NCBI RefSeq assembly: GCF_025857195.1
Contig: NZ_CP109787.1
Span: forward strand, 3,385,501 to 3,449,500
Length of the DNA stretch: 64,000 nt
Direction: 5' to 3'
Origin: Leisingera thetidis
GTDB lineage: Bacteria > Pseudomonadota > Alphaproteobacteria > Rhodobacterales > Rhodobacteraceae
Positions 52,933-64,000 of the stretch are shown here, piece after piece. The notes under the pieces are model-generated. The model searched no databases. It had not been told where the DNA came from and worked only from the letters and a program-made list of their open reading frames with translations. The translations under genes and the position numbers were made by a program. Numbering within the stretch: position 1 is the first letter of the stretch; each line of letters starts with the position of its first letter.

Positions 52933-53700
52933 TCAGCCCAGCCGCCGCATCATCGCCTGCAAGGACTGGCGGCTGGCATAGCCCAGCTCCTGCGCCACCC
53001 GCTCCATGCCCGCGCCCCTGGCCTCGGCGCGCAGCGCGATCTGGCAGCGCAGCCGGTCCCGCCACTGGCCAAAGCTGAGGCCGGTCTGCTGCGGAAAACG
53101 GCGGGTGAAGGAGCGCCGGCTCATCCCTGCCAGCTCCGCCCAATGGTCAAGGGTCTGCGCCGCACCGGGTGCTGCCATCAGCGCATCGCACACACGCCGC
53201 AGCCGCGCATCCGGCGGGTAAGGCAGCGCCAGCGGCGATTCCGGCGCCGCGCCCAGCTCGATCAGGAGCAGCTGGCCCAGGTGATAGGCCCGCGGCGGCA
53301 GCGGCCAGGGGTTGCCCATCGCACATAGTGCCGCAATCAGCCCCGCCAGCAGCGGCAGAACCGTCACCGCACGGCAGGCCGACAGCGCCTCGGCACCCGC
53401 CTCAGCCGGGGCGATATACAGCGACTGCAGCTCCACCCGGCCGATCATCCGGATTTCATGCAGCGTTCCGGCCGGAACGATCAGGCCGGAACCTGCAGGC
53501 ACCGCCCAGCTGGTGCCATCGGCCTCCGCCATCATCAGCCCTGCCACCGCATAGACCAGCTGGTGGCGCGGGTGGTCGTGCCAGGTCGAGACATAGCCGT
53601 CCTGATAGGTCCGGGCATAGCTCGCCACCCCGTGCGGCAGCATCTGCACCGCATCGGACGAGGACCACCCCCGCCGCCGGATATCCGCATTCTGGCCCAT
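52933..53700 (-). CDS. AraC family transcriptional regulator with cupin sensor
   Basis: A product of about 255 residues. An N-terminal cupin-like sensor (about 20-110, STWHDHPRHQLVYAVAGLMMAE) precedes an AraC DNA-binding domain (about 160-255, LDHWAELAGMSRRSFTRRFPQQTGLSFGQWRDRLR and VAQELGYASRQSLQAMMRRLG). The start is placed at ATG 53700. It is divergent from the PPOX-fold gene by 67 bases and could control it. Confidence 0.88.
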   Translation of the reverse strand: MGQNADIRRRGWSSSDAVQMLPHGVASYARTYQDGYVSTWHDHPRHQLVYAVAGLMMAEADGTSWAVPAGSGLIVPAGTLHEIRMIGRVELQSLYIAPAEAGAEALSACRAVTVLPLLAGLIAALCAMGNPWPLPPRAYHLGQLLLIELGAAPESPLALPYPPDARLRRVCDALMAAPGAAQTLDHWAELAGMSRRSFTRRFPQQTGLSFGQWRDRLRCQIALRAEARGAGMERVAQELGYASRQSLQAMMRRLG

Positions 53701-53767
53701 TTGCGCCGAAACTGGCCCCAACGGCACGAAAGGGCAAGATACCCTGCAGCCAAAAGGAGGACGGCGC

Positions 53768-54370
53768 ATGCAGAAAATCACCGATACTGAGACACTTGAA
53801 CAAATTTTCGGGGCTGCAGCACCACGGTCCCTGGCCAAAGTTGCCACCCGCCTCACGCCGCTTTACCAGCGCTGGATCGGGGCCTCCCGGTTCCTGGTGC
53901 TGTCCACCACCGGCCCGGAAGGCACCGATGCCAGCCCCCGCGGCGATGATGGCCCGGTGGTGCATACCGCCGGCCCCCGTACTCTGTGGCTGCCGGACTG
54001 GCGCGGCAACAACCGGCTCGATTCCCTGCGCAACATTGTGCGCGACCCGCGCGTCAGCCTGATGTTCCTGGTGCCGGGCGAAAGCAATGCGGTGCGGGTG
54101 AACGGCACCGCTTACCTGACCGCAGACGAGACCGCGCGCAAAACCTTTGCCCGCAGGACTCTGCTGCCCGCGACGGTGGCGGTGATCACCATCGAAGAGC
54201 TCTATTTCCAATGCGCCAAGGCAATCCTGCGCGCGCGGCTTTGGGATGCGGAGGCCGATCGCCCCGCCCTCCCCACCGCAGGCCAGTTCCTGAAGGAACA
54301 GGATGAGGGGTTCGAAGCCGAAGCCTATGACGAGGGCTACGCGGAATACGCCAGGACGCGGATGTGGTGA
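53768..54370 (+). CDS. Pyridoxamine 5'-phosphate oxidase-fold flavoprotein (MSMEG_1061-like)
   Basis: A 200-residue FMN-binding split-barrel protein: RWIGASRFLVLSTTGPEGTDASPRGDDGPVV, then LWLPDWRGNNRLDSLRNIVRDPRVSLMFLVPGESNAVRVNGTAYLT. The C-terminal AKAILRARLWD is typical of the MSMEG_1061 group of the PPOX class. The substrate is unknown; members reduce or bind flavin substrates. GGAGG precedes the ATG. Confidence 0.9.
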   Translation: MQKITDTETLEQIFGAAAPRSLAKVATRLTPLYQRWIGASRFLVLSTTGPEGTDASPRGDDGPVVHTAGPRTLWLPDWRGNNRLDSLRNIVRDPRVSLMFLVPGESNAVRVNGTAYLTADETARKTFARRTLLPATVAVITIEELYFQCAKAILRARLWDAEADRPALPTAGQFLKEQDEGFEAEAYDEGYAEYARTRMW

Positions 54371-54609
54371 ATGGCGGCACTGAGCCCGGACAGTCCAATG
54401 CCGTCCGGCGTGCGGCTGGCGGCAATTCTCAACACAGCATGAATTCGCTGCGCGTGCTCCACCGGCAGGTTCAAGCGGTTCGCAACTGCGGCGGAATCTT
54501 CATCAGGCGGCAAGCTTGCTTGCTCTTCAAGTGCAAGAACGCAGGGAAACTTTTCGGTGAGCGAACGTCCTAGGACGACCTACTAGACCGCCAACTGGCG
54601 CGCGTAACA
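54371..54609. other. Spacer beside the IS66 remnant
   Basis: 239 bases between the PPOX-fold gene and the truncated tnpB. No gene or repeat recognised. Confidence 0.4.
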
Positions 54610-54810
54610 TCAGGCGCTCAGGCAGCGAGGATCGCCGACCAGAATCTTCAACCGGTCGGCGCGCCGGGAGCGGAACAGGTAAATCGCCCCTGAATAGGGA
54701 TCGAGCTTGAAACTGTTAGCCACACAGGCGGCAAGCCCGTCCATACCCTTGCGGAAGTCGGCCGGCTCTGAGGCAAGGTAAATCCGGAAGTTGCTGGCAG
54801 GAGACATCAT
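54610..54810 (-). pseudogene. Truncated IS66 family TnpB
   Basis: The product MMSPASNFRIYLASEPADFRKGMDGLAACVANSFKLDPYSGAIYLFRSRRADRLKILVGD is the N-terminal half of IS66 TnpB (about 115 residues when complete). It then stops abruptly after CLSA, so the C-terminal half is lost. It overlaps the tnpA stop by ATGA, as in intact IS66 elements. Confidence 0.85.
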
Positions 54811-55175
54811 TGTGCCGTCCTCACTGCCCGCAACACTTCCACCATGTGATCGGCAGGATAGCCAGAGGGTATCTTGATGGCTGCCGCTCCGATACTGATC
54901 CGGCAGGAAGTGCTGCTTGCAGCCTCGGGTCCATTCTCGTGAGGAGGCGCTGCTGACCGCTGGGCCGCCGGAGCAACGACCTCGACAAAAGCTGGGTTCT
55001 TCCTGGAGGTGCCGGCCTTCTTGACCCAAAGAGCGACCAGCAATTTATTGGCTCCGTTCTCCTCAGCCGTCTCGTGGATTCCGGCATCAGCCAGGATCTT
55101 TTGAACGGCCGCAGCATGGAGCGCGTCCGGCCATTTTCGGCGCCCGGATGAGGAAACGGGGACCATGCACCCCAC
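54807..55175 (-). mobile_element. IS66 family TnpA, remnant element
   Basis: A 122-residue protein with an SSSGRRKWPDALHAAAVQ start, a helix-turn-helix (AEENGANKLLVALWVKKAG) and the end GYPADHMVEVLRAVRTAQ, the pattern of IS66 TnpA accessory proteins. No tnpC transposase and no clear terminal repeats were seen, so the element is inactive. It separates the PPOX region from the LysR/agmatinase operon. Confidence 0.8.
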
Positions 55176-55291
55176 AGCTTTGTCCAGACCCGCTTTTATG
55201 GGCCAATCCGAATGAGAGTGTCGGGCGCTGGCGGGCGCATGTCTAGTGCCTGGACCTGCACGAGAACCGTTCCGGCGTCCTGCCCTGCGAT

Positions 55292-55507
55292 GTGACCGAG
55301 ACCAACCGTGCCGAACACATGCGAATGCTGGACCGGCAAATCCTCGGGCTGCTGGTTTCCCGTGCCGCGGCGTCGGAGGTCAAACCACATGAGTTCGGGG
55401 AATTTTTGGACGGACATATTGAAGCGATCAGACGGATGTTTGACGAACACCCAACGCCGCTGACCGGACGGATTGCAAAGGCGGCGAGGCGGTATCGCTT
55501 CAAGTAA
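55292..55507 (+). CDS. Small orphan frame, possibly a gene end
   Basis: A 71-residue frame, MTETNRAEHMRMLDRQILGLLVSRAAASEVKPHEFGEFLDGHIEAIRRMFDEHP..., with natural-looking composition and likely helices. Coding-like sequence appears to extend upstream of the ATG to a stop near 55243, so it may be the C-terminal end of a truncated gene. It lies in the 400-base gap between the IS66 remnant and the LysR gene. No family recognised. Confidence 0.35.
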   Translation: MTETNRAEHMRMLDRQILGLLVSRAAASEVKPHEFGEFLDGHIEAIRRMFDEHPTPLTGRIAKAARRYRFK

Positions 55508-55582
55508 TAGCCGTCCCTCTCTAGCAACTGTATCCATTTTCCTTGAAGGCGGAGAAACCGGACCTTACGGGAGGCGGCACCA

Positions 55583-56512
55583 CTATTCATGATCCTTTTG
55601 GCAGGAAAGAATTGCTTTCGCCAAAAGGCCAGCCGCGCGCGAAGGTCGTTTACGCGGATATACGATTTGAAACGTGTCATTGAACGTGATCCGGTCCTTG
55701 GCCAGGGGGCGCAAACGGCCGCGCTGCACTTCGGGATCCGCGTAATGATCGGGCAGAAACCCGATAAAGGCCCCGGACAGAATGAGAAGAAGCGTGCTTT
55801 CCATATGCGCGGCAACGGCGTGCCAATTAAAGTCGATGCCGCAGATCGGTCCTTGCGGCATATATGTGCGTCCAGCAAAATCCTGCCGGGCAAGAACCGC
55901 ATCCGTCAGCGTGTCTTCCTCTACGGAAAACAAGGGGTGACGGCAGCCGCAATACAGGTTTTGGCGTTCTTCAAAGACATCGACAGCCTGCATCTGGCCC
56001 AGCTGACGCTGAGACGGCATCAGCACGGCCTGATAGCGGCCGTTCAAGATGCCTTGAGACAGGACTTGCGGCGCTGCAATGTCAATCGACAGCCGCACCT
56101 GTGGTGCGAGTTTTGAAAATTGCTCGATGGCACGATCCAGTTTCAGGCTTCGGTTGGTGTACATGGCATCCACCGTCCCGAAACTCAGATCTCCGGACAA
56201 TTCCCCCTGCGCTTCGCTGACCGCATTTTGAAACCGGTCGATGGATCCGAAAAGATCAAGCATCGCCGAATAGATCTGCCGGCCTTCCTCGGTCAGGTAG
56301 AAGCCGCCGCGGCCACGCTCGCACAACCGCATGCCGAGCCGCTCCTCAAGATGCCGCATGTGCGCTGAAATCGTAGCCTGCGTCATGCCGAGGTTTACCT
56401 GAGCGGCCGAAAACCCGTTGGCATTCACAATTTCGGCAAAGACCCGCAGCAGGCGCAAATCAACATCAGCAAGGCCGTGTGGCTGGGGCGTTTGAAGAGC
56501 AATCTTTTCCAT
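55583..56512 (-). CDS. LysR family transcriptional regulator
   Basis: A 309-residue LysR protein. Its HTH domain is at about 15-75 (VDLRLLRVFAEIVNANGFSAAQVNLGMTQATISAHMRHLEERLGMRLCERGRGGFYLTEEG) and the effector domain at about 100-300. It is divergent from the agmatinase gene with 99 bases between, including a CTAAGCTTAG palindrome at 56531-56540, and should control the following operon. Confidence 0.93.
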   Translation of the reverse strand: MEKIALQTPQPHGLADVDLRLLRVFAEIVNANGFSAAQVNLGMTQATISAHMRHLEERLGMRLCERGRGGFYLTEEGRQIYSAMLDLFGSIDRFQNAVSEAQGELSGDLSFGTVDAMYTNRSLKLDRAIEQFSKLAPQVRLSIDIAAPQVLSQGILNGRYQAVLMPSQRQLGQMQAVDVFEERQNLYCGCRHPLFSVEEDTLTDAVLARQDFAGRTYMPQGPICGIDFNWHAVAAHMESTLLLILSGAFIGFLPDHYADPEVQRGRLRPLAKDRITFNDTFQIVYPRKRPSRAAGLLAKAILSCQKDHE

Positions 56513-56530
56513 ACATAGAGATTATCACAA

Positions 56531-56540
56531 CTAAGCTTAG
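56531..56540. promoter_or_regulatory. Palindrome in the lysR/agmatinase promoter region
   Basis: CTAAGCTTAG, 10-bp perfect, flanked by similar AT-rich sequences (CATAGAGATTATC and ATACATATAGATTT). It is a candidate LysR binding site. Confidence 0.4.
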
Positions 56541-56611
56541 ATACATATAGATTTAACTGAGCGATTTTCGGTGCTTTCCTGATCCCGTCCAAATTTGGAG
56601 GGGAGAAAAGC

Positions 56612-57583
56612 ATGTCCGGCAATGCCTATGACCAAGGCCGCCTCAACTTGCCATTTGTTGGCATCAGCACCTTTGGGAAACACCCGTATGTAGCGGACTG
56701 GGACCGCATAGACGCCGATGTCGCGATTCTCGGTGCTCCGTTCGACTTTGGTACCCAGTGGCGCGCCGGCGCGCGGTTCGGGCCGCGGTCAATCCGTGAA
56801 GCTTCCACATTGTTCTCGTTTGGCCATGGCGGCGCGTATGACCATGAGGACGATGTTACTTATCTGCCGGCGGAGAAGGTCCGGATAGTCGATCTTGGCG
56901 ATGCCGATATCATCCATACTGATACTGAAAAGAGCCACGCGAACATCGAACTTGGCGTCCGCAAAATTCTGGCCGCTGGCGCACTGCCAGTGGTCCTGGG
57001 CGGGGATCACTCGGTCAACATCCCCTGCATCAATGCCTTTGATGAGGATTGTGCCCGGAAAGGCCCCATCCACGTCATTCAGATCGACGCGCATCTCGAC
57101 TTCGTCGATGAACGCCACGGTGTGCGTTGCGGGCATGGCAACCCGATGCGCCGCGCCGCCGAGAAGGACTATGTCTGCGGCCTGTCGCAACTTGGTATCC
57201 GAAATGTCTCCTCGACAGCGCGCGACGGCTATGAGGCAGCGCGTGCCATGGGCTCCGATATCCTCTCGGTACGCCAGATCCGTTCGCTTGGAGTGGAGGC
57301 TGTGCTGGCGCGGATCCCAAAGGGCGAACGCTATTACGTGACAATCGACATCGACGGGTTCGACCCCTCGATTGCTCCAGGCACGGGCACGCCCTCGCAT
57401 GGCGGGTTCATTTACTACGAGGTGCTGGAAATTCTCGCCGGCCTTGCCGGACGCGGCACGATTGTCGGCATCGATCTCGTCGAGGTTGCGCCGGACTACG
57501 ACCACACCGGCGGCACGGCAATTCTGGCGGCACAGGTTCTGATGAACCTTATCGGCCGCATCATGCACGCGCGGGAGGTCTGA
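56612..57583 (+). CDS. speB: Agmatinase / ureohydrolase family protein
   Basis: A 323-residue ureohydrolase. Manganese ligands are His133 (GGDHS), Asp159, His161 and Asp163 (IDAHLDF), and Asp246 and Asp248 (IDIDGFDP). The last is followed by the conserved GTGTP. The family cleaves a guanidino group to urea and an amine, with agmatine, guanidinobutyrate, guanidinopropionate or similar as substrate; the sequence does not settle which. GGAGGGGAG precedes the ATG. First gene of a LysR-controlled operon lacking other polyamine genes, so the symbol is tentative. Confidence 0.88.
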   Translation: MSGNAYDQGRLNLPFVGISTFGKHPYVADWDRIDADVAILGAPFDFGTQWRAGARFGPRSIREASTLFSFGHGGAYDHEDDVTYLPAEKVRIVDLGDADIIHTDTEKSHANIELGVRKILAAGALPVVLGGDHSVNIPCINAFDEDCARKGPIHVIQIDAHLDFVDERHGVRCGHGNPMRRAAEKDYVCGLSQLGIRNVSSTARDGYEAARAMGSDILSVRQIRSLGVEAVLARIPKGERYYVTIDIDGFDPSIAPGTGTPSHGGFIYYEVLEILAGLAGRGTIVGIDLVEVAPDYDHTGGTAILAAQVLMNLIGRIMHAREV

Positions 57584-57585
57584 AA

Positions 57586-58368
57586 ATGGGCAAACTCCGC
57601 TATGATTTCACCGGGGAACAGGTGCTGGTCACAGGCGCAAGCCGTGGTATCGGCTTTGCTGCCGCCAGAGCCTTTGCCATGGCTGGTGCCGAGGTGACGG
57701 TCTTGTCTTCAGGCGCCGGCATCCATGCCGCCGCTGATGCGATTGCCACAGAAAGCGGGCGTCCTTGCCGGGCGCTCGAAGCCGACATCACCGATAGCGC
57801 ATCCGTAAAGGCAGCGCTTGCGCCGCTCGACCGGATCGACGTGCTGGTCAACAATGCCGGGCTGGAGCGCATCACCCCGCTGCTCGACCCTGACGCGGCC
57901 GTAGAGGAAACATTCCGGCGTATCACTGACATCAATGTGAACGGTACCTTCTACGTCACCCGCCACGCCGTGCCGAAAATGCGCAATGGCGGAAGTATTA
58001 TCGTGACCGCTTCGATCTGGAGCCGTACCGCGGTGCCGGAGTTTGCGGCCTATGTCGGCTCGAAGCATGCCAACTTGGGTTTCACCCGCGTGATGGCCAA
58101 GGAACTCGGGCCGCGCAGTATCCGGGTGAATGCGGTTTGTCCGGGATGGGTCAAGACCGATGCAGCGATGTTGTCGCTGACCGAGATGTCGCAGCGCACC
58201 GGGCGCAGCGAAGAAGATCTGTTGTCCGAGATCACTGCCGCGCAAATCCTGCCGGGACTGCTGGAACCTGACGATATTTCTGCGGCCTACCTTTATCTCG
58301 CCTCTGACGGCGCGCGGGATATCACCGGTCAAGCGGTCATGGTTGACCGCGGCGAGGTGATGGCATGA
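57586..58368 (+). CDS. SDR family oxidoreductase (first)
   Basis: A 260-residue short-chain dehydrogenase. Cofactor motif TGASRGIGFAAARAFAMAG (about 16-34); NNAGLERI near 91; catalytic Ser in TASIW and the YxxxK motif as YVGSKHANLG (about 150-158). The Gly-rich motif suggests an NAD(P) dehydrogenase or reductase of a hydroxy or oxo group. It begins 2 bases after the agmatinase stop and overlaps the next gene by 4. Confidence 0.93.
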   Translation: MGKLRYDFTGEQVLVTGASRGIGFAAARAFAMAGAEVTVLSSGAGIHAAADAIATESGRPCRALEADITDSASVKAALAPLDRIDVLVNNAGLERITPLLDPDAAVEETFRRITDINVNGTFYVTRHAVPKMRNGGSIIVTASIWSRTAVPEFAAYVGSKHANLGFTRVMAKELGPRSIRVNAVCPGWVKTDAAMLSLTEMSQRTGRSEEDLLSEITAAQILPGLLEPDDISAAYLYLASDGARDITGQAVMVDRGEVMA

Positions 58369-59102
58369 CGGCGCGTGTTCTCATTACCGGCGCTCAGCGC
58401 GGCATCGGAGCCGCCACTGCCCTGGCCTTTGCAAGACAGGGCGCGCGTTTGGCGCTTGCCGATCTCAGTGCGCCGGACACATCCGCCGGAGCGGCAGGCT
58501 CACAAGGAGCGGCAGAGTCTCACGCGTACGCCTGCGATGTCTCCGATGCGGCCGCGGTGGCCGCGCTGGCTGAGACCGTGCAATCTGCCTGGGGCGGGCT
58601 TGATGTGCTGGTCCACTGTGCCGGAATCATCCACGAAGCTCCGCTTCTGGACACCCCGGCGGCAGACTTCGACCGCGTGATTGCCGTCAATCTTCGTGGC
58701 AGTTTTTTGGTTGGCCAGGCCGCCATCGGCCTGATGACACCCGATGCGGCCAACCCGCCCCGCGCGATCCTGATCGCTTCCGACATGGCCTATTACGGGC
58801 GCGAGACATTTTCACCTTATGTCGCCTCCAAACACGGTGTGCTTGGGCTCGTGCGCAGCTGGGCCAAGGAGTTCGCCCCCGGCATTCTTGTCAACGCCAT
58901 CTGCCCCGGACCGATCGATACCGAAATGCTCGGCGCCGAACACATGAGCGCTGAATGGCGGGCAAAAGAGCTTGCCATTCCGCTCGGCCGCTTCGGCACG
59001 CCAGAGGAGGTTGCCACGGTGGCGGCCTTCCTCGCCGGCCCCGGCGGCCGGTATTTCACCGGCCAAGGGATTGGCCCCAACGGCGGGAGCGTCATGCCAT
59101 GA
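58365..59102 (+). CDS. SDR family oxidoreductase (second)
   Basis: A 245-residue short-chain dehydrogenase: TGAQRGIGAATALAFARQG (about 7-25), VHCAGIIHEAPL (NAG-type motif as HCAG), catalytic Ser (IASDMAYYG) and YVASKHGVLG. It is a different paralogue from the preceding SDR and is coupled to both neighbours by ATGA overlaps, suggesting stoichiometric expression. Confidence 0.92.
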   Translation: MTARVLITGAQRGIGAATALAFARQGARLALADLSAPDTSAGAAGSQGAAESHAYACDVSDAAAVAALAETVQSAWGGLDVLVHCAGIIHEAPLLDTPAADFDRVIAVNLRGSFLVGQAAIGLMTPDAANPPRAILIASDMAYYGRETFSPYVASKHGVLGLVRSWAKEFAPGILVNAICPGPIDTEMLGAEHMSAEWRAKELAIPLGRFGTPEEVATVAAFLAGPGGRYFTGQGIGPNGGSVMP

Positions 59103-59995
59103 TCAGCAACCCTATCCCCTGGCCGGGCGGAGCAAAATGCGCGGCCTGCATCACCTTCGACATGGACGCCGACAGCCTGATCCATCTGGCGCATCCGAAC
59201 GACGGCCACAGCCGCACCGCGGCAATTTCCATGCTCCGCTACGGGCCGGAAATTGCCATCCCGCGTATCGTCGAAAGCTACCGGCAGCTTGGCATCCGCC
59301 AGACCTTTTTCATTCCGGCCTGGTGCATCGAGCAATACCCAAGGGCGGTCGAGGCGATCCTGGAGGGCGGGCATGAGATCGCCCATCACGGCTTCCTGCA
59401 TGAGCATCCGCGTGAACTTTCAGCGGACGAAGAGGCCCATTGGCTTGACCGGGGCATTGAAGTCATCGTCGAGGCGACCGGCAAACGCCCGCGCGGCTGG
59501 CGTGCGCCGCTCTACAACTTCTCGCACCGCTCGGCGGATCTTCTGGCGGAGCGGGGCTTTGTCTATGATGCCTCGCTGATGGGCGACGACCAGCCGTATT
59601 TGCTTCAATCCGCGGCTGGGCAGCTGGTGGAACTGCCGTCGCATTGGGGCATGGACGACTGGCCGCAATATGTTCAGTCGATGGATCTCGACTACATGAT
59701 GCCCATCCGCGCGCCGCAAGAGGGATTCAAGATCTTCTCGCAGGAATATGAGGCGGCATGGCGCCACGGCGGATTGTGGATTCCCGTTGTGCATCCCTTT
59801 GCCACCGGCCGGCTGGCGCGGTGGGAGATCATGCACCGGTTTATTGAAGAGGCTCTGGAACGCGGCGGTGTCTGGTTTGCACCGATGGAGGAGATCGCGG
59901 CCCATGTCCAGGATGTGGTGCAAAGCGGGGCATGGAGCCCGCGCGTAGACAAGCTGCCGCATTACCCGGAACCCGTCCAGGTCCGGAGAACCTAA
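59099..59995 (+). CDS. Polysaccharide deacetylase-fold hydrolase
   Basis: A 298-residue NodB-fold metal hydrolase. The metal site starts CAACITFDMDADS (Asp pair near 21-25), followed by HEIAHHGFLHEHP (His-His near 95-96) and RGWRAPLYNFS (Arg near 136). The LIHLAHPND insertion and overall length resemble PuuE-type allantoinase/polysaccharide deacetylases rather than chitin deacetylases. It probably hydrolyses a small amide or N-acyl group. It overlaps the upstream SDR by 4 bases. Confidence 0.88.
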   Translation: MISNPIPWPGGAKCAACITFDMDADSLIHLAHPNDGHSRTAAISMLRYGPEIAIPRIVESYRQLGIRQTFFIPAWCIEQYPRAVEAILEGGHEIAHHGFLHEHPRELSADEEAHWLDRGIEVIVEATGKRPRGWRAPLYNFSHRSADLLAERGFVYDASLMGDDQPYLLQSAAGQLVELPSHWGMDDWPQYVQSMDLDYMMPIRAPQEGFKIFSQEYEAAWRHGGLWIPVVHPFATGRLARWEIMHRFIEEALERGGVWFAPMEEIAAHVQDVVQSGAWSPRVDKLPHYPEPVQVRRT

Positions 59996-60053
59996 TGGAT
60001 ACCTAAGGAGAGTTACTGCGGGCTGAATTGGCCTGCCATCAAGGGAGGGAACG

Positions 60054-60218
60054 ATGAACGAACATACTGAGGAATGGCTCGCTGAGATTGATCGGCGCGC
60101 CGCGGTCTATGACCAGACCGGCGAAGACGGCCAAGGCCGCATGACCGCAGTCGACTATCTCGGGATAGCCGCGCTGACTTTGGCGGTTGCCGCCGTTTTC
60201 TGGGTGTGGGGGACCTGA
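60054..60218 (+). CDS. Small single-helix membrane protein
   Basis: A 54-residue frame: MNEHTEEWLAEIDRRAAVYD, then a charged linker, then one hydrophobic helix (about 32-50, VDYLGIAALTLAVAAVFWVW) ending in GT. AGGGAGGG lies about 7 bases before the ATG, and the stop is one base before the permease start, so it is translated with it. No known family. A helper or regulatory subunit of the NCS1 permease is plausible. Confidence 0.7.
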   Translation: MNEHTEEWLAEIDRRAAVYDQTGEDGQGRMTAVDYLGIAALTLAVAAVFWVWGT

Positions 60219-60219
60219 G

Positions 60220-61686
60220 ATGACAATGGAAACAACATCTGAGAGCTTTGGGGCGGAACCCGCAGGCGATGTATCCAATGGCTATGCTGCGGCAGCCGAA
60301 CGGGGCGATGCGCCGCTGCTGCCATCCGAACGGCTATGGGGGTTCAAGGAATTCACCTTTGCCAATTCGGCGCTGGCAATTGCCACTTGGGCCTTCCTGA
60401 TCGGAGGCGCGGTTGGATTGTTTGTCGGTCCCAAGGAAGGGATCGCGGCAATCGTGATCGGCAATATTTTCGGTGTGGTTCTGACTGCACTGGCCACCAC
60501 GGTCATGACAGGGCGCTACGGTGTGGAACAGTTCACCGCCCTGCGCAGCCAGTTCGGTTACAACGGCAGCCGCCTTGTCTATCTGCTGGCTGTCATCGTT
60601 CTGACCATGGGCTGGCTGGCTGTGCTGGCAATGATGTTCGGCCGTTCGATTGACGGGCTGACCGCGCTGGCAAGCGGCGGCACGGCTTCTCCTGTCGGCA
60701 TCAAGACGGCCATTGCGGCGGTCGGGGCGATCCTGCTGACCTGGTATATCGTCGCCCGCGGGCCGACGTCGATCAAGGTCTTCAACATGATCGTTTCGCC
60801 CGCGCTGGTGCTCCTGATGGCAGGCATGCTGTGGCTGATCTTCCGTCAGCATTCCTTTGCAGAACTGATGGCCATGGAAGCACTCGACCCGCCGTTCGAG
60901 GACAGCCATCTGAACTTTATCATCGCGATCGAGGTCAACATGGCGGCGGGCTTCTCCTGGTGGCCCTATATCGGCAACCTGGCGCGGCTGACACGCAATG
61001 AGCGGACCGCCTTCTGGCCCAACCTTGTCGGCATTTTCGGGGCCGCAGTGCTCGGCGAGATCGTGGGATTGCTGGCGGCGGTATCTCTGGGCGACAGCGA
61101 CCCGACAATCTGGATGACGATGATTGCCGGCGTTGGTTTCGGTGTGCTGGCGCTCGCTTTCATCGCCTTCGCCAACATCACTTCAATGGCCAATATCCTA
61201 TATTCTGCAAATGTCGGGCTGCGTCAGGTCGGCACGGCTGGCGTGCGCCGGATCGGCTGGGGCACGCTGCTGTTCGGGTTTTGCATTGTGCCGCTGCTGC
61301 TGGCCGTGGTCTTTCCGCAGATATATGACGGGTTCTTCATTTTCCTGGTCTGGACTTCGGCGCTCAACTCGGCGCTGGCGGGGATCGGCATCGCCGACTA
61401 CTTCTTCCTGCGCCGCCAGCGGCTTGACCTGCGCGCGCTGCACGGCAGGCAGGAAAACGGCGCTTACCAGTTCCTGGGCGGGTTCAACCCGATTGGTCTC
61501 TTCGCGCTGCTGGCGGGCTTTGTCACCTATGTGTGGCTGTTCAACCCGCAAACGCTCGATAACGTGGAAGCCTTCCGCTACCTCACGGCGTCGCTGCCAT
61601 CCTGCGCAATGGCCGGGCTGGTCCACTACGTATTGACCCGCTTGCTGGCCAACCGTCTCGGCTGGGGGAATTACCCCAAGAACTAA
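60220..61686 (+). CDS. NCS1 family permease (cytosine/purine/allantoin type)
   Basis: A 488-residue transporter with about twelve membrane helices. ERLWGFKEFTFANSALAIATWAFLIGGAVGLFVG resembles the NCS1 first helices, and helix 6 carries AIEVNMAAGFSWWPYIGNLARLTRNE. NCS1 proteins import nucleobases, hydantoin, allantoin and some vitamins with Na+ or H+. ATG 60220 follows the preceding stop by one base. Downstream a hairpin (61694-61723) precedes the GMC gene. Confidence 0.88.
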   Translation: MTMETTSESFGAEPAGDVSNGYAAAAERGDAPLLPSERLWGFKEFTFANSALAIATWAFLIGGAVGLFVGPKEGIAAIVIGNIFGVVLTALATTVMTGRYGVEQFTALRSQFGYNGSRLVYLLAVIVLTMGWLAVLAMMFGRSIDGLTALASGGTASPVGIKTAIAAVGAILLTWYIVARGPTSIKVFNMIVSPALVLLMAGMLWLIFRQHSFAELMAMEALDPPFEDSHLNFIIAIEVNMAAGFSWWPYIGNLARLTRNERTAFWPNLVGIFGAAVLGEIVGLLAAVSLGDSDPTIWMTMIAGVGFGVLALAFIAFANITSMANILYSANVGLRQVGTAGVRRIGWGTLLFGFCIVPLLLAVVFPQIYDGFFIFLVWTSALNSALAGIGIADYFFLRRQRLDLRALHGRQENGAYQFLGGFNPIGLFALLAGFVTYVWLFNPQTLDNVEAFRYLTASLPSCAMAGLVHYVLTRLLANRLGWGNYPKN

Positions 61687-61693
61687 CGAAAAT

Positions 61694-61723
61694 CCGGCAG
61701 GTGAAGCTTCGTTTGCCTGCCGG
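61694..61723 (+). terminator. Intercistronic hairpin between permease and GMC genes
   Basis: CCGGCAGG and CCTGCCGG pair around a 14-base loop. It may stabilise the upstream message or partly terminate it. Confidence 0.45.
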
Positions 61724-61767
61724 CCGCCGCAAGGCTGCAATCCACTTGAAATAACGGAAGGTGTCCC

Positions 61768-63447
61768 ATGACCCAGTCCTACGACTATATCATCATTGGT
61801 GCGGGCTCAGCTGGATGCGTGCTGGCGAACCGGCTGAGCGAAGACCCCAAAACCCGCGTTCTGGTGCTGGAATTCGGCGGGTCGGACAAGTCCATCTTCA
61901 TCCAGATGCCAACGGCGCTGTCCATTCCGATGAACGGCACCAAGCATAACTGGCGCTACTACACGCTGCCCGAACCAGGTCTGGACGGGCGCCGGGTGCA
62001 TTGCCCGCGCGGCAAGGTGCTGGGCGGGTCATCTTCGATCAACGGCATGGTCTACATGCGCGGCCATGCACGCGACTTTGATGAATGGGAGGAGCTTGGC
62101 GCCAAAGGCTGGGGCTACGCCAACTGCCTTCCTTATTTCCAGCGCGCCGAAAGCTGGAAGGGCGGAGGCGATGAATGGCGCGGGGACACCGGCCCGCTTG
62201 CCACGAATGCCGGCAATGAAATGGAAAACCCCCTTTATCGCGCCTTCGTCGCGGCAGGGCGGGAGGCAGGCTATGTCACCACAGACGACCCGAACGGCCA
62301 CCTGCAGGAGGGGTTCGGCCCGATGCACATGACCGTGAAGGACGGGCGCCGCTGGTCGACTGCCAACGCCTATCTGAAACCCGCGATGTCCCGGCCGAAC
62401 CTGACCGTCCTGACCCACGCCATGACGCGGCGGGTGATCCTGGAGGGAAAGCGCGCGGTGGGCGTCGAGTATGAACGCGGCGGTCAGCGCCACATTGCTC
62501 ATGCCACCTGCGAGGTGTTGATCTCTTCTGGCCCGATCGGCGCACCGCACCTGCTGCAGCGGTCGGGGATCGGCCCGGCAGAGGTTCTGCGCAAAGCCGG
62601 TGTCGGCGTGCAGCACGATTTGCCCGGCGTGGGGGAAAACCTGCAGGATCACTCCGAGGTCTACATCCAGTACGCCTGCAAGGAACCGATTACGCTGAAT
62701 GGCAAGATGGGGCTTTGGAGCAAGTTCCTGATCGGCGCGGAGTGGATACTGTTCAAGCGCGGCCTGTCGGCCACCAACCACTTCGAAAGCGGCGGTTTCA
62801 TCCGTTCGGATGCCTCCTTGGAATGGCCCGATATTCAGTTCCATTTCCTGCCTGCCGCGATGCGGTATGACGGCAAAGAGCCGCTAAAGGAGCATGGCTT
62901 CATGGTGCTGACGGGGCCCAATAAACCCAAAAGCCGGGGCCATGTGCGGCTGCGGTCCACCGACCCGTTTGAGCAGCCCGATATCCTGTTCAATTACCTT
63001 GAGCGGGAAGAAGACCGGGAAGGGTTCCGCAAGTGCTTGCGGCTGACGCGGGAGATTGTCGCCCAGCCTGCGTTTGACAGGTACCGAGGTGAGGAAATGG
63101 CCCCCGGCAAGGACGTCCGGACGGATGACGAGATCGACGCCTGGGTGCGTGAAACGATGGAAAGCACCTATCATCCCTGCGGCACCTGCCGCATGGGCGA
63201 GGATGGAATGGCCGTTGTGGACAGCGAGCTGAAGGTACACGGTATCGGCGGGCTGCGCGTGATTGACAGCTCAGTTTTCCCGAGTGAGCCCAACGCCAAT
63301 CTGAACGCCCCAACGATCATGCTGGCGGAACGCGCGGCGGACATGGTGCGCGGGCGCACGCTGCTGCCGCCATCGAATGCCGCGGTTGGCACCGCCCCGG
63401 GGACGGGCCAGACCCAGCGCAGCAGCGAGCCAGTCCGCAAAATCTGA
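61768..63447 (+). CDS. GMC family oxidoreductase (choline dehydrogenase-like)
   Basis: A 559-residue GMC flavoenzyme. FAD motif [20 protein letters not shown] (about 6-25), GMC signature 1 [18 protein letters not shown] (about 84-101), signature 2 [17 protein letters not shown] (about 252-268), catalytic His in [11 protein letters not shown] (near 473) and the C-terminal [14 protein letters not shown] with the second catalytic residue. It should oxidise a primary alcohol to an aldehyde. Similarity to BetA is general, and the neighbouring genes do not look like a choline system. GGAAGG precedes the ATG. Confidence 0.92.
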
Positions 63448-63896
63448 CAGGAAGATTGGCCCTGCAGAGTCCTAATGCCAACCGCCGATGCATGCAGTTT
63501 GGAGATAAAAACATATTGGTTCGGCAGAGGCGGCATCGGCCCAGAGCGACGATCAGAACACTATGAGGCAGCTTGACGGCTTGGAGCCCATTCCGAAAGC
63601 GCTAAGCCCCTGCTGCGCGCGCAGAATTTTCCACGAAGCGCCATGGCTGTGTCCACCGCTGCTTCACTATGAAAAAGCAGCCATTCATGCAAGCCGCAGC
63701 ACGGTTCGGATCAGCAGCAACGGAACTGCGCAAACAGGTGAACCTTCTTGCATGGCAGCCAACGGCCGCTTCCAGAAGCCCTTGTTTGCCCGAAGGAGCC
63801 GCCTGTACTACTCGACCCAAATTTGTACCCGGTTACCTGGCTTGATAGCCCGGGCAGAAACTGCCCGGGCCACTGTCTTGGACTATTGCACTCGCT
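63448..63896. other. Gene-free end region
   Basis: 449 bases without a recognised gene. Open frames here lack a ribosome site and family features. The only structure is the hairpin at 63848-63870. Confidence 0.45.
63848..63870 (-). terminator. Perfect hairpin after the last gene
   Basis: GCCCGGGCAG-AAA-CTGCCCGGGC, 10-bp stem with a 3-base loop, 26 bases past the stop of the partial minus-strand gene. It is a good terminator candidate despite a poor T run. Confidence 0.6.
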
Positions 63897-64000
63897 TCAG
63901 CGAGCGTCGTGGATAATCTCGCCGTCGAAGACTGTAAGCGGGAACTTGGTCTCCGCGATGTCCCAGATCGTCTCCAAATTCTGCGACGGCGCTTCGATGT
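63897..64000 (-). CDS. C-terminal end of a gene entering from the right edge
   Basis: On the minus strand an open frame runs from the window edge to TGA at 63897, ending QNLETIWDIAETKFPLTVFDGEIIHDAR. The sequence is coding-like and followed by a hairpin. The family was not recognised from 33 residues. Strand and frame are well supported, identity is not. Confidence 0.5.
   Translation of the reverse strand, partial: IEAPSQNLETIWDIAETKFPLTVFDGEIIHDAR

Follow-up and report, generated by a model that had tools for sequence, protein, structure and literature searches.

Several described systems offer points of comparison for an operon of Leisingera thetidis (Rhodobacteraceae) that lies in a 64,000-nucleotide (nt) stretch of contig NZ_CP109787.1 (RefSeq assembly GCF_025857195.1, positions 3,385,501 to 3,449,500 of the forward strand), hereafter called the window, whose positions serve as coordinates throughout. 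The nearest biochemistry found is work on 4-guanidinobutyraldehyde in S. meliloti (PMC7268258) and on the human guanidino-acid hydrolase AGMAT, also termed GDAH (PMC9772407), both judged from the accessible parts of these reports. Human AGMAT, like GbuA and GpuA, shares the ureohydrolase fold with one of the operon's enzymes and releases urea from linear guanidino acids; in the accessible text, it is inactive on guanidinoacetate, and guanidinoethanol is a poor substrate for one variant (PMC9772407). In the metformin cluster metR2TR1ABCaCb, MetT is termed an NCS1-like importer, and MetCaCb is inactive on guanidinobutyrate and guanidinopropionate, as given in the available sections of PMC11271267. 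In vitamin B6 degradation, pyridoxal is converted to 4-pyridoxic acid either via a dehydrogenase and a lactonase or directly by an oxidase, according to the portion of PMC6253932 at hand.

The L. thetidis operon resembles these systems in part. With the metformin cluster, as far as its accessible description goes, it shares the combination of an NCS1-like importer (the permeases are 41% identical) and arginase-family hydrolases acting on a guanidinium compound. However, the HypA/HypB proteins and the second ureohydrolase of that cluster are absent among the eight genes of the window operon, whereas GMC, SDR and NodB enzymes belong to the latter. With vitamin B6 degradation, as portrayed in the same partial source, the route proposed below has in common an alcohol oxidation followed either by a dehydrogenase and a ring-opening hydrolase or by direct oxidation of the aldehyde, but the ring is a lactone there and a lactam is proposed here.

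The operon comprises seven co-directional plus-strand genes, encoding a ureohydrolase (UH, used for both gene and protein), two short-chain dehydrogenases/reductases (SDR1 and SDR2), a NodB-fold hydrolase, a small membrane peptide, an NCS1 permease and a choline-dehydrogenase-like flavoenzyme of the GMC family, which face a divergent gene for a LysR-type regulator (55583-56512, minus strand; Pfam HTH_1 and LysR_substrate). This layout had been described in an earlier reading of the DNA (the original prediction) and is confirmed with refined starts (overlaps of 4 nt, gaps of 1-81 nt); Pfam concurs with each family named there, and the peptide is without a Pfam match. The same reading had called for a search for the conserved gene set and had regarded the operon as the best candidate in the window for an undescribed pathway. 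All eight genes were found together at 13 retrieved loci, and no paper assigning the set to a characterised substrate was found in the open-access literature, with most subscription papers outside its reach. The locus is therefore a genuine catabolic operon that is conserved and, within the scope of these searches, has no assigned substrate.

Loci were anchored on the NCS1 gene and mapped by tblastn in a plasmid collection, a genome collection and two genomes, and 22 were chosen, comprising 20 with this NCS1 group, one ABC transporter form (L040) and one from Thioclava (L135). Contexts were derived from gene calling and direct tblastn, with L041 coming from a gene caller with many wrong frames; L143 is a second copy of L042, and the overlapping L035 and L036 were counted once. 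In the plasmid collection, the NCS1 permease is represented by 13 records at 60-80% identity, the next ones standing at about 40%. The eight-gene set LysR + UH-SDR1-SDR2-NodB-peptide-NCS1-GMC occurs at 13 loci in Rhodobacterales and Rhizobiales (Leisingera, Gemmobacter, Defluviimonas, Tabrizicola, a Rhodobacterales metagenome-assembled genome, Ensifer and Sinorhizobium), and since gene order and strand are kept at the 12 retrieved loci other than the window, chance is no explanation. That ordinary choline/betaine and agmatine genes became neighbours by accident, as the passing of a BetA and an agmatinase cut-off by GMC and UH might suggest, is a far-fetched and already disfavoured view, given eight genes in one order at 13 loci of two taxonomic orders and the presence of a bet operon elsewhere in this genome.

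Seven other loci (from Ensifer canadensis, NGR234, Shinella, Aminobacter and strain XES5) carry a second form, LysR + UH-ALDH-peptide-NCS1-GMC, in which an aldehyde dehydrogenase (ALDH) gene occupies the middle; in one of them (L024), GMC was not seen and the NCS1 gene, as annotated, is truncated where the locus stops. Between UH and the peptide-NCS1 pair, the slot thus holds SDR1-SDR2-NodB at 13 loci and ALDH at seven, with both or neither at 0/20. This ALDH form and the peptide-NCS1 pairing discussed below are additions to the original prediction. In Mesorhizobium atlanticum (L040 and L141), SDR-SDR-NodB and GMC are accompanied by a TauT-like ABC transporter that replaces the peptide and NCS1, and four further Ensifer adhaerens plasmids outside the 20 (CP084488, CP030264, CP015882 and CP121310) have UH, NodB and NCS1 positions that fit the SDR form. 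The operon is rare, because a survey at E 1e-120 detected NCS1 in only 1 of 385 sampled genomes of the class, namely the window's own.

In a comparison of eight chosen operons, three of the SDR form (Ensifer/Sinorhizobium) and four of the ALDH form (Rhizobiales) are 90.2-94.1% identical in NCS1, 91.3-94.4% in UH and 92.0-93.2% in GMC. A nearly unchanged transporter, first and last enzyme and regulator around a swapped middle is the pattern to be expected of two alternative routes for a single conversion. Acting downstream of an alcohol dehydrogenase and ahead of a guanidino hydrolase, the ALDH would convert an aldehyde to an acid. In trees of 19 (UH), 18 (NCS1) and 20 (GMC) rows, with L158 and L024 left out, the ALDH rows cluster together within the Rhizobiales for UH and NCS1 (support 82/87 and 80/81); in the GMC tree, two changes are required to account for them.

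The control region is also shared. A LysR orthologue stands in the equivalent place at all 20 retrieved NCS1 operons, and of 21 operons, 20 carry CATAGA in the 120 nt upstream of UH, compared with 0.71 expected from letter shuffles and with 2 of 82 other distinct UH copies. An element of this kind near -60 is present in 17/21 operons versus 0/82 of those other copies. In the window, the intergenic control region (56513-56611) contains a variant of the CATAGAT-type motif at 56543-56554, where the equivalent site reads CATATAGAT, and a strict CATAGA match adjoins the lysR start; strict matches near the lysR start also occur in L112 and L042. Both the LysR gene and the operator-like motif are common to the SDR and ALDH operon forms. 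No guanidine riboswitch was detected at the Rfam gathering score in window positions 54000-64000.

The best-supported reading of these data, to which we would assign slightly less than an even chance, is that the operon catabolises a guanidino alcohol to an amino acid and urea, with every reaction deduced from gene content and context. The substrate would be a short guanidino alcohol, H2N-C(=NH)-NH-(CH2)n-CH2OH, brought in as a cation by the membrane peptide and the NCS1 permease. GMC would turn the alcohol into an aldehyde, which would spontaneously cyclise to a cyclic hemiaminal; an SDR would oxidise the hemiaminal to a cyclic acylguanidine; the NodB-fold enzyme, a member of the PuuE allantoinase fold group, would open this ring to give a guanidino acid; and UH would split the acid into urea and an amino acid. 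Among such alcohols, 2-guanidinoethanol is the most likely substrate and would pass through glycocyamidine (a relative of hydantoin and creatinine) to glycine and urea; this C2 case is favoured because of the likeness of GMC to choline dehydrogenase, the hydantoin-type ring logic and the lack of amino-acid breakdown genes in the operon, and longer chains are possible for this deduced chain length. In the sister operons, one ALDH would take the open aldehyde directly to the acid, making SDR plus NodB an alternative 'lactam route'. That the SDR acts on the cyclic hemiaminal, that the PuuE-like NodB protein is a new cyclic acylguanidine hydrolase ('glycocyamidinase') and that NCS1 has a small membrane subunit is a more specific proposal, which we regard as possible but rather doubtful. 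In outline, the import of a hydroxylated compound with a guanidino or amide group followed by oxidation and hydrolysis had already been suggested, and this suggestion fits the relatedness to MetT, the ALDH in the slot and the existence of a separate bet operon, the substrate and reactions themselves being conjectural.

UH (56612-57583, plus strand), with an arginase fold (PF00491, Arginase, 273 bits), is the proposed guanidino-acid hydrolase. Its metal-site and substrate loops are nearly invariant across 109 retrieved copies (105 distinct sequences), and the solved structures most closely related to it are those of an agmatinase, a guanidinobutyrase and a guanidinopropionase. Under the stricter agmatinase model PRK02190, it scores 205 against a required 302. 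The substrate loop, which sets specificity, reads DERHGVRCGHG in UH and differs from its counterparts in guanidinobutyrase GbuA and guanidinopropionase GpuA (DHMFGEKIAHG and DRYFGDNPYTHG). The solved relatives, together with a narrow pass of the agmatinase model TIGR01230, might also point to a four-carbon, agmatine-allied route, in which NCS1 would import agmatine or 4-guanidinobutanol and 4-guanidinobutyraldehyde would be converted via 4-guanidinobutyrate to 4-aminobutyrate (GABA). In its favour, enzymes of S. meliloti act on 4-guanidinobutyraldehyde and 4-guanidinobutanoate, according to the accessible part of PMC7268258, and the Thioclava plasmid combines LysR, a small open reading frame, NCS1 (40%), a ureohydrolase and ALDH without GMC. 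Nevertheless, such a route appears improbable, considering that the window operon contains no aminotransferase or GABA gene, that the UH loop is unlike that of the enzymes just named, and that GMC is closest to choline dehydrogenase, whose alcohol has two carbons.

Beyond the NCS1 operons, UH copies occur in diverse settings. Among 108 contexts tallied (omitting L143 and keeping a few loci fetched twice), 58 have none of eleven marker genes sought, and a TRAP DctM gene lies beside UH at five; at L111, profile matches confirmed both DctP and DctM. TRAP genes in this position would be expected if the UH substrate is an acid. Neighbouring operon genes accompany UH at 2 of 20 short loci examined (L001 and L002). 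Within the genus, UH is at least 90% identical to that of the window in 2 of 21 genomes, and the best match in the remaining 19 is 76-79% identical in 18 and 40% in one (G011). Other gene sets were observed near members of the UH group. EutA-like, M24 peptidase (ectoine-hydrolase-like) and diaminopropionate ammonia-lyase genes occur at L076 (10961-14114), L043, L064, L083 and L088, with the ammonia-lyase gene outside the printed part at the last two, possibly indicating a diaminopropionate-related guanidino compound. In Rhizobiales, a set of PfkB kinase, ureidoglycolate-lyase-like and BtpA genes adjoins the UH operon at L024 (11159-16742), L034 and L035 (which overlaps L036), adjoined in turn at L024 by GntR and amino acid ABC transporter genes. 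In Roseovarius and other Alphaproteobacteria (L023, L048 and L058), a second ureohydrolase (UH2) and an ABC transporter are divergent from a regulator, annotated as TetR at L023, with UH-SDR-SDR-NodB.

SDR1 (57586-58368, plus strand), which follows UH after a 2-nt gap, and SDR2 (58365-59102, plus strand), which overlaps SDR1 by 4 nt, both match adh_short_C2 and are proposed hemiaminal or alcohol dehydrogenases. They retain TGxxxGIG at 16, N117, S143 and Y156-K160 (SDR1) and TGxxxGIG at 8, N109, S139 and Y152-K156 (SDR2), which we take to be the cofactor-binding and catalytic positions. With 145.6 and 146.8 against a cut-off of 325, both are far below the threshold of the SDR-type pyridoxal 4-dehydrogenase model NF047923, and a vitamin B6 route was rejected on this ground. 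The NodB-fold enzyme (59099-59995, plus strand; Polysacc_deac_1; overlapping SDR2 by 4 nt) is the proposed cyclic acylguanidine (lactam) hydrolase. In its fold, it groups with PuuE allantoinase and allied proteins (PuuE/NodB1.2 group), not with polysaccharide deacetylases, and its score under the PuuE allantoinase model TIGR03212 is far below the cut-off (83.6 versus 424.6 bits), so that an allantoin route was also rejected. PuuE is described as non-metal-dependent in the accessible text of PMC10967932, whereas the window enzyme retains the NodB His pair. Operons that combine BMP-ABC, NodB and UH but include no SDR, GMC or ALDH gene (L044, L055 and L056) would be expected under the guanidino alcohol reading if NodB opens a ready-made ring and feeds UH. 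Elsewhere in the window's genome (L139; G000:C1:3743000-3761000), a second NodB gene (68%) ends a BMP-type ABC transporter operon, and the binding protein of the adjoining ABC operon shows a 27% likeness to the nickel-type binding protein of L030. A cassette variant at L147 (864-10576) comprises UH2, an APH-type kinase, a class III aminotransferase, UH, TauT-like ABC, SDR, SDR and NodB genes.

GMC (61768-63447, plus strand; GMC_oxred_N/C), proposed as a guanidino-alcohol dehydrogenase, begins 81 nt after NCS1. It passes the NCBIfam equivalog TIGR01810 for BetA (778.2 bits, cut-off 732.1), and its best solved relative is the oxygen-dependent choline dehydrogenase 9lq0. However, it does not lie in a bet operon (BetI-like, BetB, BetC), and such an operon, with gene names read from translations, is located at G000:C1 ~2433634 and contains the genome's own BetA, to which GMC is 55% identical. 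A housekeeping choline dehydrogenase role was rejected because that bet operon is located elsewhere, and GMC is, judged from its sequence, a choline dehydrogenase paralogue. The hairpin that had been reported ahead of this last gene is real, with an 11-bp stem at 61695-61722 (plus strand) between NCS1 and GMC; the minimum free energy of the 96-nt stretch is -30.8 kcal/mol (z -2.1, with 5/200 shuffles as good). It is not followed by a T-run and is not among the 10 terminators that a scan found, where shuffles gave an expectation of 7.5, and a terminator function was rejected for want of the T-run.

The NCS1 permease (60220-61686, plus strand), the proposed guanidinium importer, starts 1 nt after the peptide gene; a longer alternative with a TTG start at 60187 would overlap that gene. 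It matches PF02133 (Transp_cyt_pur) at 90.9 bits (cut-off 23.5), falls short of TIGR00800 (88.4 versus 353.1) and has no match among solved structures at E up to 1. The nearest NCS1 proteins from a described system, those at 41% identity, are encoded on plasmids of Pseudomonas sp. KHPS1 and P. mendocina MET-2, where they adjoin agmatinase-family, HypA and HypB genes; this layout matches that of the metformin cluster, by which they were equated with MetT. The best NCBIfam match, far below its cut-off (102.9 versus 309.85), is CytX, a putative transporter of the thiamine pyrimidine HMP, and the solved structures homologous to GMC include pyridoxine 4-oxidase, which would be in line with HMP catabolism in which GMC oxidises the hydroxymethyl group, NodB opens the ring and UH hydrolyses the released amidine. 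This scenario is very unlikely, however, as UH persists in the ALDH operons, which themselves encode no ring-opening enzyme, its nearest relatives act on guanidino substrates, and the permease is related to MetT.

The 54-aa single-span membrane peptide (60054-60218, plus strand), located 58 nt after NodB, has a hydrophobic C-terminal segment with W and no Pfam or NCBIfam match, and a protein-database search returned two matches. A relative (~54-58 aa, one span) lies upstream of NCS1 in 20/20 retrieved NCS1 operons, and the simplest reading is that the peptide is a partner of the transporter. To our knowledge, no small membrane partner has been reported for NCS1 transporters. Small open reading frames also directly precede NCS1 genes whose products are 30-40% like that of the window in Thioclava (L135, 7828-7989), Burkholderia multivorans (L138, 355-585) and Arthrobacter (L136, 6795-7004), and such a partner may be a general feature of a subset of this transporter family. 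On both metformin plasmids (L134 and L159), a peptide-like unannotated frame with an in-frame stop codon is found just ahead of the NCS1 (MetT) gene.

Several observations weigh against the guanidino alcohol reading. Curated models would label UH an agmatinase and GMC a choline dehydrogenase, and UH clears the agmatinase SpeB equivalog TIGR01230 by a margin of 4 bits (178.2 bits, cut-off 174.3). As for the released urea, the window's genome has no urease alpha match (the control search found one in 4/14 genomes), and its urea carboxylase matches are partial and under the cut-off (exceeded in 1/14 in the control), so that urease and urea amidolyase were both set aside as its users. The trees force no more than one ALDH/SDR swap, so that the exchange may have happened once and is no statistical proof. 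L041 has LysR, UH, ABC and GMC with an empty slot, its SDR and NodB relatives (53-60%) being encoded on the opposite strand. The lactam route would need just one of the two SDRs, and SDR-SDR-NodB occurs at 42-54% identity with TauT-like transporters and without GMC (L144, L147 and L151). Furthermore, NodB with BMP-ABC genes is found near four of the seven ALDH loci, as UH-SDR-SDR-NodB at L024 and L038, as UH-NodB at L036 (overlapping L035) and as NodB alone at L039; therefore, ALDH need not be a substitute there, and SDR-NodB may serve another compound.

The last of these points bear equally on a rival explanation, the catabolism of a hydroxylated or cyclic guanidine with a creatinine-like or 2-aminoimidazole-like ring. 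Here, the SDRs and GMC would oxidise hydroxyls of the ring or of a side chain, NodB would open the ring and UH would remove urea, while the ALDH operons would serve a different, linear relative. Two SDRs fit two hydroxyls, the SDR1-SDR2-NodB unit travels with TauT-like, BMP, APC or polar-amino-acid transporters, often without GMC, and the persistence of NodB near those four ALDH loci agrees with a separate role. On the other hand, transporter, UH, GMC, regulator and operator motif are near-constant across the ALDH swap, which points to one imported substrate, and the cyclic guanidine explanation is considered rather unlikely.

Just upstream of lysR (54610-55540), remnants of IS66-type insertion-sequence genes (a TnpB-like reading on the minus strand, read by eye from translations) were noticed, fitting recent acquisition. 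At 52933-54370, the window contains a gene for an MSMEG_1061-type PPOX flavoprotein with a divergent AraC-family regulator.

If the guanidino alcohol reading is true, guanidino alcohols would join guanidine biology as a substrate class, and the 'polysaccharide deacetylases' encoded alongside alphaproteobacterial 'agmatinases' would gain a function. Such loci, annotated as agmatinase or choline dehydrogenase, would encode neither. It would also suggest that NCS1 permeases are able to work with a one-span partner.

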